Shown in pieces: positions 17,013 through 20,557 of a stretch of 36,355 nt of DNA. The position numbers and the translations under genes were made by a program. Origin of the DNA: Bacilli bacterium (lineage in GTDB: Bacteria > Bacillota > Bacilli > Paenibacillales > KCTC-25726); contig DASVDB010000124.1 in assembly GCA_036381315.1 (NCBI GenBank), positions 1 through 36,355 of the forward strand, read 5' to 3'. Each line of letters starts with the position of its first letter. Within the stretch, counting starts at the first letter, position 1. The notes beneath the pieces were generated by a model. The model was not told the DNA's origin. It saw only the letters and a program-made list of their open reading frames with translations, and made no database searches.

Positions 17013-17084
17013 CATACGGGAGGGATATTGTGTTTCGTAGCTTTTGTTACTATTCTCATTATTTTAACTTCATGTACTCATAAA

Positions 17085-17364
17085 ACGTTGACCACGAGTT
17101 ACATTAATGGGCCATCCCTCTTCTTCGGCATCATCAAAGTCAATGGATTGTCTGTGCCCGATCATTAGTGCCAGCGCTGTCCCACCTGCTAAATATGCTT
17201 CTGGAATCGGTGATACTGCCAAGGGAAATTTCATCGCCCATATTCAATACCCGCTCAATGATAAAGTGACGATTTTCCTTGATATCCAGGGAGTGCAAAT
17301 CTGTATCCCAGAACAGCCTTGTCACATCTTGTTGAACTCCGTGCAAATCCGACAATCTCCTCAC
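17085..17364 (-). pseudogene. Remnant of a DUF6922 / AbiEii-type nucleotidyltransferase toxin-antitoxin locus
   Basis: On the minus strand one frame reads LFWDTDLHSLDIKENRHF then IIERVLNMGD (about 17310-17234), the hallmark start of DUF6922 antitoxin-like proteins. Immediately downstream in another frame (17224-17085) the text FPLAVSPIPEAYLAGGTALAL continues into MIGHRQSIDFD, the nucleotidyltransferase core of AbiEii-family toxins (LAGGTALAL..GHR.S.DFD), and then DDAEEEGWP, which resembles that family's C-terminal YFDDAEEE segment. Most of both genes is missing: the antitoxin stops after about 40 residues and the toxin core is joined to its tail near the DFD/FDD similarity. This is a deleted, frame-broken relic. 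Family identification rests on motif memory. Confidence 0.65.
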
Positions 17365-17536
17365 CCAGCTTTATTTTCTATATTTTCGAGTGATATAACA
17401 CACTTGCGATTGCCGTGGCGGCCTGCTTGCAGAATATAGTCCATCATTTGCATCACATACTGAAATGTCGACCGATTTGCGGAACAGCTAAACTGAAACT
17501 GTGAAAATGTTAATAAGACTGAAGAGGTGTCTGGTT

Positions 17537-17695
17537 ATGGCTGTACAAAATGAAGTAAAAGTATGGGAGACGATAAAGACAATCCCCACTTATGGAATCG
17601 GCGCACCGGGTAAAAATCCGCTGTTTTTGGAAAAACGGGTGTACCAGGGCAGTTCGGGGAAAGTTTACCCGTATCCGGTGATCGACAAAATTGAA
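17537..17695 (+). pseudogene. N-terminal fragment of a DUF5107 (TPR) family protein
   Basis: The frame begins at ATG 17537 behind GAAGAGGTG and reads EVKVWETIKTIPTYGIG, PGKNPLFLEKRVYQGSSG and KVYPYPVIDKI. This is the N-terminus of large (about 1000-residue) DUF5107/TPR proteins linked to carbohydrate metabolism. After VIDKI near 17695 the similarity ends abruptly and the rest of the frame to 17971 is unrelated antisense text. Only about 53 residues remain, so the gene is truncated by a rearrangement. The intact start and ribosome site suggest fairly recent loss. Confidence 0.75.
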
Positions 17696-17699
17696 GTCG

Positions 17700-17870
17700 A
17701 TAGCTCTGGCCCCCGCCTGATAATCATCACAGCATGTAACGACACTTCCTCATTCTTGCAACATTCATTTGCCTCTGCCATTCCTTCACTTAACTGTTGT
17801 ATCGGCGGAATCGGCAAGATTTTTGCAAAAATGTGCTTTACAACTGTACGATCATGCTGCAAATCGTTTT
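17700..17870 (-). pseudogene. Possible frameshifted remnant of a response-regulator receiver domain
   Basis: Downstream of the ComP-like kinase on the same strand, where its response regulator is expected, pieces of receiver-like sequence appear in alternating frames: IFAKIL, then ADSADTTV in the next frame, SEGMAE, MLQE, and EEVSLHAV or SVVTCCDDYQAGARAI. Combined they resemble a receiver start (KILxADxxTTVxEGMxxMLQ). Several frameshifts and stops are needed and the fragment ends at the DUF5107 junction. The call rests on weak pattern and on position. Confidence 0.35.
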
Positions 17871-17905
17871 CCGATTTTGGACGAACTCTCCATACTGCCG
17901 TTTCT

Positions 17906-20221
17906 TCATGCCGATATCGATGCTTGCAGGGGAAAAGAAATTTTCAATTTCAGCCCCTCGCCCGCTTTTGAATGAATGTCCAACTGGCCGTGCAGATCGA
18001 GGACACGGCTTTTCATCTGCAGCATGCCGACGCCGGTTTTGCCCGGCACCGGATCGGGAATTTGGTCAAAGCCGATGCCGTCGTCGCGATATTTGAGCTT
18101 GACCGTTCCGTCTTTTGCGGACAGTTCAATCGCCACTTTTGCGGCTTTGGCGTGCTTCTTCGCATTGCTGATCAGTTCTTGCACAATCCGAAACACATGG
18201 CGTTTCTGGTCAAGGTCGAGCTTTTCGATCTGACTTTTGTTGAATACGCGGAATTCGATTTCGCACGTTGCGGCGGCGTTTTCAAATTCCACTGTTTTTT
18301 CAATCGAATTGACCAAACCGGTAGTGCGCAGCAGATGGGGGTAAAGCTCAAAGCAGCTTTGCCGCAGATTGGTGTTGATGATTTCAATATATTCGGTCAA
18401 CTTGTTCAGCTCGGATTGGTCTTCTTCGGTTAATGCGTATTTTTCCAGAAGCGCGGTCAGCTTGCGCTTCAAATACAAAAGATCCTGCATGGTCGTATCG
18501 TGCAGATCGTTGGCTATCCGTTGGCGCTCTTTTTCCTGCATTTCAAACATGGACTTGCGAAACCATAAAAATTCTTTGGCGGCCTGTTCATCGGGCGCCT
18601 GCGCGGCAAACTCGTGCAGTTTTGTCGTCAGCTTGCGGATCAAATACAAATTTTCCAGGCTGACGGACAAATATGTGATGATCAGGTTCAGCCAATCCAG
18701 TTCCTCCTTGACGAGCATCGTCTTCGCTTTCTTTTCGGAGACGATGAGGAAGCTGCTGTATTCTTCATGGTGGTTGATCGGGAATATGGTGCAACAATCG
18801 CAACTTTTTCGTCCTTCTTTGATATGCCTTTCGATTTTCCCATAATCAACTTCGCCGATGCCGATCGTTTCCAACTCTTCCGCAGACTGAAAGACGATCG
18901 CGCAGCCGTGCACCTGCAGCGTATTGACAATGTCCACCAACACAATCTCTTTAATTTCCCGAAAATTGGATATTGTCGCGAGATCGCGCGATATTTTCCC
19001 CAATGCCCGCTGCAAATAATACTTGCGCGGGAACATGACTTTATTCAATTTGGTCGTAATGTATTCAAGCGAATATAAAACGAACGTCCCCAATGTCACG
19101 GTAATGATGAACAGGATAACCAACCGGTCCACGGAAATGGTTGGAGCGAGCAGAGCCGCTGCGATGGCGACTGTGACGGCGCTGGGAATGATGGCGATCA
19201 TAACGGTAAACAGGATGCGTCTGACCACGTTTGGAATATCATACAACCGATTCGTCGCCATCAAATAAGTGAAGGATAACGGGAAAAAGAGGATAAGCCA
19301 GGAAAAATCCAAAAAGCCGATCGATATTTGTTTGAATAATAGTTGCGCCAAAATGTTCAAAACAACAAAGGGGACAAAGGAAATAAACAAGGTAACCCAA
19401 ATCGTTTTGATAATAACGGAAATATACAGGTTTTCTTTACGATGTTTCCAAAACAGGTAGCTTAACAAGCCGAAGTTCCACAAAATTCCACCAATAAAAT
19501 ATGGGTAAGCAATAAAATAACTGATTTTGTAAATCAAATTTGCAGTCTGCGGTATGAAAAAGTTAAACAGAATTATGCTGATTATGGCGATAAAACCATA
19601 TAAATATTTCAAACTGGAGGAGCCGAGATTGATGTTTGCTTTTTCCCGTAAAAAGACGATTAAAAAATGCTGGAAGACGGTTGGCGTCAACATGACAGTG
19701 GTTGCGATCAAAATTTTGCCCACAGCGTCTCCGCGCACAGATGCGCCCAGTCCGGTAAAGGCCAATCCGATGACAACAAACAAAAGCGCGAGATGCCTGG
19801 CGGAGGGGGAATTTTTTAGCTTTCGGAGCAACAATCCAGCCATGTAAAAACAAATAATCTCCGCAAAAATAATCATGACATTTTGACCATCATGGCCACG
19901 TTCATTGCTTAAATCCAGTTTCAATAATTGGCCGGCTTGCGAAACTGTGAGCGAATCGGTCTGTTCAACTTGCCTCCATTTTTTTACGGAAAAATGATCG
20001 AAAGGATCCTTGTCGTTGATTTTTAAGATGACGTCACCCGGTCGGATGCCAAGACGGTAACCGGCACCATCTCTGTCCAATTCAGATACTATCCATTCTT
20101 GGTTGGAAGACAGTTGCAATCTAATACCCATGAATGGATATCTAAACATTAAATATAAAAACCAGCACTGAATAAAAACAAACATGAATAAAAGTAGAAT
20201 AAAAATTGTTCGTTTTAACAT
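17906..20221 (-). CDS. ComP-like membrane sensor histidine kinase with PDZ domain
   Basis: A 771-aa kinase very close in architecture and length to Bacillus ComP, which senses the extracellular ComX pheromone. Order: one membrane segment (1-28), an extracytoplasmic PDZ-like domain (about 36-100, with GYRLGIRPGDVILKINDKDP), six to eight membrane segments (about 115-385), a linker with a GAF-like part, the HisKA_3 dimerisation helix with ERQRIANDLHD and phospho-acceptor His574, and an HATPase_c domain with Asn686 in ELISNAKKH and the DDGIGFD loop. Short C-terminus ends FPLQASISA. The ATG at 20221 follows AAAGGGAGAGAATTT. A ComX-like peptide is encoded divergently 69 bp away. No intact response regulator lies downstream, only degraded sequence, so its partner must be elsewhere or lost. 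Confidence 0.9.
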   Translation of the reverse strand: MLKRTIFILLLFMFVFIQCWFLYLMFRYPFMGIRLQLSSNQEWIVSELDRDGAGYRLGIRPGDVILKINDKDPFDHFSVKKWRQVEQTDSLTVSQAGQLLKLDLSNERGHDGQNVMIIFAEIICFYMAGLLLRKLKNSPSARHLALLFVVIGLAFTGLGASVRGDAVGKILIATTVMLTPTVFQHFLIVFLREKANINLGSSSLKYLYGFIAIISIILFNFFIPQTANLIYKISYFIAYPYFIGGILWNFGLLSYLFWKHRKENLYISVIIKTIWVTLFISFVPFVVLNILAQLLFKQISIGFLDFSWLILFFPLSFTYLMATNRLYDIPNVVRRILFTVMIAIIPSAVTVAIAAALLAPTISVDRLVILFIITVTLGTFVLYSLEYITTKLNKVMFPRKYYLQRALGKISRDLATISNFREIKEIVLVDIVNTLQVHGCAIVFQSAEELETIGIGEVDYGKIERHIKEGRKSCDCCTIFPINHHEEYSSFLIVSEKKAKTMLVKEELDWLNLIITYLSVSLENLYLIRKLTTKLHEFAAQAPDEQAAKEFLWFRKSMFEMQEKERQRIANDLHDTTMQDLLYLKRKLTALLEKYALTEEDQSELNKLTEYIEIINTNLRQSCFELYPHLLRTTGLVNSIEKTVEFENAAATCEIEFRVFNKSQIEKLDLDQKRHVFRIVQELISNAKKHAKAAKVAIELSAKDGTVKLKYRDDGIGFDQIPDPVPGKTGVGMLQMKSRVLDLHGQLDIHSKAGEGLKLKISFPLQASISA

Positions 20222-20242
20222 AAATTCTCTCCCTTTTTTAGA

Positions 20243-20269
20243 AATTTAATGATATAATGTCATTAAATT
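20243..20269. promoter_or_regulatory. Perfect palindrome overlapping a TATAAT -10 between the kinase and the ComX-like gene
   Basis: AATTTAATGA (20243-20252) and its exact complement (20260-20269) flank TATAATG, so the plus-strand -10 TATAAT (20253-20258) lies in the centre. No good -35 precedes it. It sits between the divergent genes and suits a dimeric regulator acting on both. Confidence 0.6.
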
Positions 20270-20290
20270 GTGATGAAGAGAGGTGATATA

Positions 20291-20461
20291 ATGCAAGCTG
20301 TTTTGTATTCTCCTCAATTGCATCATGTCGTACGGAAAATGAAAGCCAAGAAAGAAAGCACTTACATTGCCAAGCTCTCGAACGAAGAAACGGTCGCGCT
20401 AACGAAAGTACTTAATTCCAAACAAAAAGGCAAACCGGAAATCAAAGAATATTGGTGGTAA
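20291..20461 (+). CDS. ComX-like pheromone precursor peptide (putative)
   Basis: A 56-residue peptide starting at ATG 20291, six bases behind GAGAGGTGAT; an in-frame ATG at 20270 overlaps the palindrome and is unlikely. It has a charged, amphipathic body (HHVVRKMKAKKESTYIAKL, then SNEETVALTKVLNS) and ends KEYWW. ComX precursors are 53-58 residues, have the pattern of a helical N-terminal half, a short Leu/Ile-x-x-(S/T)-x-x-E segment, and a C-terminal part with the Trp that is prenylated by ComQ. Length, C-terminal aromatic Trp and placement next to a ComP-type kinase fit; the classical SLIG box is not obvious, transcription is divergent rather than co-directional, and no ComQ is present. It could instead be an unrelated small protein. 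A strong terminator closes the unit. Confidence 0.5.
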   Translation: MQAVLYSPQLHHVVRKMKAKKESTYIAKLSNEETVALTKVLNSKQKGKPEIKEYWW

Positions 20462-20487
20462 TTGTTTCTCCTTAATTTTACCAGAAC

Positions 20488-20530
20488 AAAAAGAGGTTGC
20501 ATATATTTTTAAAATATGCAACCTCTTTTT
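20488..20530. terminator. Bidirectional terminator between ComX-like gene and DUF2935 gene
   Basis: A perfect 17-bp stem (20488-20504 with 20514-20530) bearing AAAAAG at its left end and CTTTTT at its right end serves both convergent genes. Confidence 0.92.
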
Positions 20531-20557
20531 GCGGTTTTATGGCTTTTTCCACTTCTC

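Follow-up and report, generated by a model that had tools for sequence, protein, structure and literature searches.

To our knowledge, work on ComX signalling has dealt almost exclusively with the Bacillus subtilis group, where it is encoded by a tight four-gene locus. Described ComX precursors are 52-73 residues long and carry a Trp near the C-terminus, and the 2014 census of com loci included hypothetical comX genes on the opposite strand in three B. cereus strains and L. fusiformis, as well as a Paenibacillus curdlanolyticus locus in the canonical order comQ-comX-comP-comA; neither a divergent comPAQ layout in Paenibacillus nor a dispersed system was reported there (PMC4008528). The prenylating enzyme ComQ follows a pattern in which the first Asp-rich motif is kept and the second is degenerate (PMC10853753).

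Here we analyzed a 36,355-nucleotide stretch of DNA (the window) from a bacterium of the order Paenibacillales, in which a small peptide gene lies divergent from a ComP-type kinase. Across the Paenibacillales a divergent comX accompanies comP-comA-comQ, and in this genome the genes of what is very probably a ComX-type system lie at three separate loci and include two pairs of signal and receptor. No description of either the divergent or the dispersed layout was found in the literature searched, with most subscription journals outside its scope.

The divergent peptide gene and kinase

The first-pass annotation had placed a 56-aa ORF and a 771-aa kinase in divergent orientation 69 bp apart, and had ascribed the ComP plan to the kinase. 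Coordinates, gap and orientation are all as it gave them, and PDZ, HisKA_3 and HATPase_c domains were found in the kinase together with many hydrophobic segments. The features of the region are:

17906..20221, minus strand: 771-aa membrane histidine kinase of the ComP type, made up of a first helix, a PDZ domain, a multi-helix sensor, HisKA_3 and HATPase_c
20222..20290, no strand assigned: divergent intergenic region, 69 bp, with a palindrome (20243-20269) over a TATAAT-like -10 and the peptide RBS; role putative
20291..20461, plus strand: 56-aa ORF ending in ...KEYWW, very probably the gene of a ComX-type precursor peptide (conserved in the family with an invariant C-terminal Trp, under purifying selection, profile match to ComX)
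20475..20483, minus strand: TGGTAAAAT, an extended -10-like element beside the hairpin, pointing through comX to the kinase and conserved in relatives; putative promoter
20487..20531, no strand assigned: conserved hairpin after comX, core GGTTGCATA/TATGCAACC; predicted terminator and/or regulatory element

The peptide, MQAVLYSPQLHHVVRKMKAKKESTYIAKLSNEETVALTKVLNSKQKGKPEIKEYWW, extends from an ATG at 20291, preceded by a Shine-Dalgarno-like AGAGAGGTG, to a stop codon at 20459-20461, and has Trp at residues 55 and 56. Its start codon and that of the kinase are separated by positions 20222-20290. In the kinase, the phospho-acceptor His lies in RIANDLHD (HisKA_3), and the N and G boxes of HATPase_c are kept. 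It thus has the multi-helix N-terminal half, the HisKA_3 and HATPase_c domains and the adjoining comX by which a ComP is recognized, and the PDZ-HisKA_3-HATPase_c plan is also that of the canonical-order ComP of Desulfosporosinus and Calidifontibacillus. No response regulator follows the kinase. The DNA downstream of it (17070-17900) holds gene debris, namely pieces of AbiEii and DUF6922 and a short ORF that matches no family.

Full-length relatives of the window kinase were found in 17 of the 61 genomes of the order, its own included (E < 1e-130). Whether a C-terminal Trp peptide would be missing beside orthologous kinases had been set as a test beforehand, and it is not: a divergent ORF of 30-130 aa with a Trp in its last three residues adjoins 54 of the 60 distinct kinases of the clade, whereas the rate expected from other ORFs at the same loci is 6.4% (binomial p ~1e-57; such an ORF was found upstream of 25 of 390 other large ORFs in these loci). 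When 24 divergent peptides were aligned, one C-terminal Trp proved invariant; of 61 non-redundant peptides, 44 have their last Trp in the penultimate position, 15 end in it and 2 have it third from the end. When 20 homologue pairs were compared, dN/dS was below 1 in every computable pair, mostly 0.05-0.35, with a value of 0.57 in one nearly identical pair. Judged from the conservation of divergent Trp-ending ORFs and from these dN/dS values, the 56-aa ORF is a real gene that encodes a protein and is under purifying selection.

The association of kinase and peptide is not strict, since five of the 60 clade kinases, all of them orphan copies in Chengkuizengella, have no recognizable peptide beside them; the sixth kinase scored without one is L101, whose ORF start is over-extended. 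Four orphan Chengkuizengella kinases without a small ComX (L076, L077, L079 and L081) have a codirectional, conserved protein of 125-130 aa upstream, ending in ...HLKAWI, an ending that may be due to chance or may mark an enlarged precursor.

Relationship of the peptide to ComX

As the first-pass annotation had proposed, the window peptide was compared with the Pfam ComX model (PF05952). It scored 12.6 bits, below the cut-off of 25, in an alignment that is colinear over residues 29-55. Pfam and NCBIfam scans of the window peptide gave no family above cut-off, and Pfam scans of the peptide family, member by member, gave a ComX match in only 2 of 24. Single-sequence HMMs being too weak for this family, we used profile-profile comparison with shuffled controls. 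A profile of 61 divergent peptides matched one of ComX, the latter built from 19 ComX-type sequences from Bacilli genomes and canonical-order loci, with an hhalign probability of 94.7% over 54 columns, end to end. The best of 200 column-shuffled profiles reached 3.3%, and the match still had a probability of 91.6% when the last five residues were cut from both sides. The SLIG-E-AI-F stretch of ComX matches an LS-E-AL-F stretch of the divergent family; the window peptide itself has no clear SLIG box, as had been remarked from the sequence at the outset.

The divergent and canonical layouts are bridged by three Paenibacillus/Bacillus loci, because the peptides of these canonical-order loci start with the divergent-family motif, WSPQLKE or WSKQLKE, and their kinases branch beside the divergent clade. 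This branching was seen in a FastTree subtree that carries long-branch warnings among its canonical-order rows; the one placement in it that was tested again is that of the window pair. The length of the window peptide, 56 aa, and its Trp at residues 55 and 56 are within the range described for ComX precursors. Our combined comparisons suggest that the small gene is very probably a ComX-type signal peptide gene. The earlier proposal of a ComX variant beside a ComP-like kinase is therefore upheld by conservation, by profile similarity to ComX and by co-occurrence with ComQ (below), though not by the PF05952 score, whereas the other proposal, a new peptide class, is not supported.

A prenyltransferase, a regulator and a second pair at other loci

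The divergent order had been regarded as a departure from known loci. Within the Paenibacillales it is not unusual: comX divergent from comP-comA-comQ, with comQ last, was seen in almost all retained relatives and is the commonest layout found. A W-terminal small ORF adjoins 71 of the 76 kinases that have a regulator and ComQ behind them, and several of the five misses are truncated kinases or contig ends. Four adjacent genes on one strand, the defining arrangement of comQXPA, are found neither in this genome, with its three loci, nor in those relatives whose comX is divergent.

That the pair is without ComQ is true of the window, which encodes no prenyltransferase, but not of the genome. The genome-wide search suggested in the first-pass annotation revealed three polyprenyl-synthase genes, the weakest of which (PF00348, 59 bits), on contig C163, encodes a 313-aa ComQ homologue. 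It lies directly behind a gene for a 206-aa NarL-type, ComA-like regulator, and both genes are intact. Of the two possibilities raised earlier for this peptide, a distant prenylase is the one that agrees with a comQ away from the window kinase, and the absence of any prenylase is unsupported. The C163 protein combines the polyprenyl-synthase family with the Asp-rich motifs that mark ComQ, keeping the invariant DDxQD and having NDxxD as the second motif, and is a putative Trp prenyltransferase; a PDB sequence search with the ComQ profile retrieved nothing beyond ordinary prenyl synthases and enzymes related to them. All 17 genomes of the order with the kinase have a ComQ of this type, as does 1 of the 44 without it (Fisher p 3e-14). 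Where it occurs among the 61 genomes searched, there is one ComQ per genome, also in those with two or three comX-comP pairs. This genome has a single ComA of this type, the next regulator being 24% identical. In the species-genome collection, C163-type ComQ was found in Paenibacillus, Cohnella, Chengkuizengella, Desulfosporosinus and Calidifontibacillus, and the com loci of the last two genera are in canonical order where their flanks are readable. Paenibacillus athensensis has four ComQ homologues in one genome (L121, L149, L155 and L156), with no kinase of the window type within the stretch examined around L155 and L156.

A second pair, on contig C108, consists of a peptide ending in ...VQVKAWWS and a kinase 60% identical to the window kinase. 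ComQ and ComA of this genome are sisters of those of G001, its nearest relative and the sole other genome of the family in the comparison (SH-aLRT 96 and 99), and both genomes have an orthologous SRAP gene close to comQ; because of this sisterhood and synteny, C163 resembles the ancestral locus from which comX and comP are missing. The two kinases, in contrast, are sister to each other and not to the kinase of G001, a forced grouping with which was rejected (AU p 0.02), and therefore the comX-comP module has a different history from that of comQ and comA. Identity between the two kinases is 36-52% in the sensor half versus 69-78% in the catalytic half, a contrast to be expected if the two receptors bind different ligands and share one partner. 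In the kinase tree at least six changes are needed to account for the orphan state, so that unlinked comX-comP pairs have probably arisen repeatedly.

A cis element is common to all three loci. The hairpin after comX in the window folds with z values of -7.5 and -9.0, and its core follows the pattern GRTTGYRYA...TRYRCAAYC, often followed on the kinase strand by TTTGGTAAAAT. Of the four matches to this pattern in the genome, three lie at the window pair, the C108 pair and the C163 comA, and the fourth lies elsewhere, on C157. It occurs 17 times in 77 distinct kinase upstream regions and not once in the remaining 1.05 Mb of those kinase loci; no Rfam family matched the hairpin above any gathering score. 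The loop varies in length, which points to an RNA hairpin or terminator, and the letters of the stem are conserved, which points to a protein site. The adjacent TGGTAAAAT could start a kinase transcript running antisense through comX.

The intergenic region upstream of comA on C163 has elements of its own. At 2354-2392 of this locus (L058), between comA and a 72-aa ORF, two tandem TTGCGC-N4-GCGCAA palindromes flank a TATAAT. Each half-site differs by one base from the consensus of the B. subtilis ComA box (PMC4797271). The same box is absent from the window intergenic region, and its background in the genome is high (52 hits versus 18 in a reversed control); these ComA-like boxes are only a lead. 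The 72-aa ORF, together with a homologue of the sporulation inhibitor Sda (PF08970, E 5.6e-12), is divergent from comA (G000:C163, 2498-2911, plus strand), and Sda-like ORFs are also divergent to tandem ComP-like kinases in Chengkuizengella (L061, L062, L067 and L071).

A probable dispersed ComX system and its described counterparts

We consider it likely that these genes make up one ComX/ComP/ComA/ComQ system whose members have come apart, with one ComQ and one ComA serving two comX-comP pairs. The shared part of this explanation, that a single enzyme and a single regulator serve two signals and their receptors, is probable. The 56-aa ORF would encode a pheromone precursor, on which the ComQ-like enzyme from C163 would prenylate a C-terminal Trp, as in ComX biology, and which would then be cut and exported. 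The divergent membrane kinase would sense the processed peptide and phosphorylate, across loci, the ComA-like regulator encoded beside comQ. Were the C108 pair to use the same ComQ and ComA, two pheromone-receptor channels would share one enzyme and one output, and the system may regulate its own expression. Here we infer the pairing of ComQ and ComA with the unlinked window kinase.

Alternatively, the window pair could be a decaying satellite, an orphan copy left without a working output after rearrangement. Such decay would fit the lack of a regulator after the kinase while comA-comQ lies elsewhere, the fragmentary downstream ORFs (pieces of AbiEii and DUF6922, the next without a family) and the loss of the peptide beside the orphan kinases of Chengkuizengella. 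However, the kinase is intact with all catalytic motifs present, its conservation relative to the C108 kinase is concentrated in the catalytic half (69-78%, versus 36-52% in the sensor half), and the start, RBS and hairpin of the peptide gene are intact, as are comQ and comA, so we regard decay as unlikely. The physical separation of comQ from the window pair, and a peptide ending in two Trp such that the modified residue is not obvious, would also be compatible with a peptide that is sensed unprenylated or owes its modification to a different enzyme, in which case the C163 ComQ would act for the C108 pair only or have some other use. The invariant Trp, the strict co-occurrence with one ComQ per genome across the 61 genomes and the hairpin common to all three loci argue against this, and make it very unlikely.

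Hardly credible, in our view, is a PalQXP-like RiPP cluster, with an NHLP-leader peptide and PalQ, in place of ComX. PalX also ends in a C-terminal Trp and adjoins a kinase in Paenibacillus (PMC10853753), but the window peptide has only 56 aa and no NHLP match in the Pfam or NCBIfam scans, the family profile aligns with ComX over its full length, and PalQ is described as clustering apart from ComQ (PMC10853753).

Extending the preferred explanation of an unlinked ComX system, we lean slightly towards a trans-encoded network in which one ComQ and one ComA would serve several scattered, independently diverging comX-comP pairs, tied together by a system-specific hairpin. If so, pheromone-receptor modules could be copied and exchanged, with the enzyme and the output left in place. 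Many species of this largely soil-dwelling order carry a ComX system in another gene order, one that the standard ComX model misses. Several genomes have more signal-receptor pairs than prenylases and offer a natural test of how new pherotypes arise; in this view of their origin, receptor and signal would duplicate together and diverge, with enzyme and regulator common to the pairs.

Compared with ComQXPA of Bacillus subtilis and its relatives (PMC4008528), the system has the same components: a short precursor with a C-terminal Trp, a prenyl-synthase-like ComQ, a multi-helix ComP with HisKA_3 and HATPase_c and a NarL-type ComA, with peptide profiles that align over their full length. It differs in that comX of the Paenibacillales is divergent and comQ last, in that their peptides have LSxxE instead of the SLIG box and a Trp at or next to the C-terminus, and, in this genome, in the distribution of the genes over three loci with two comX-comP pairs. 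The 2014 census loci are similar in having hypothetical comX genes with a C-terminal Trp, one type of them on the opposite strand, but, unlike this genome, keep all four genes together (PMC4008528). PalQ-PalX-PalP of Paenibacillus alvei likewise joins a kinase, a C-terminal Trp peptide and a Trp prenyltransferase of the isoprene-synthase fold; PalX, unlike the window peptide, carries an NHLP leader, with cleavage after residue 72, and PalQ is described as a sequence cluster separate from ComQ (PMC10853753).
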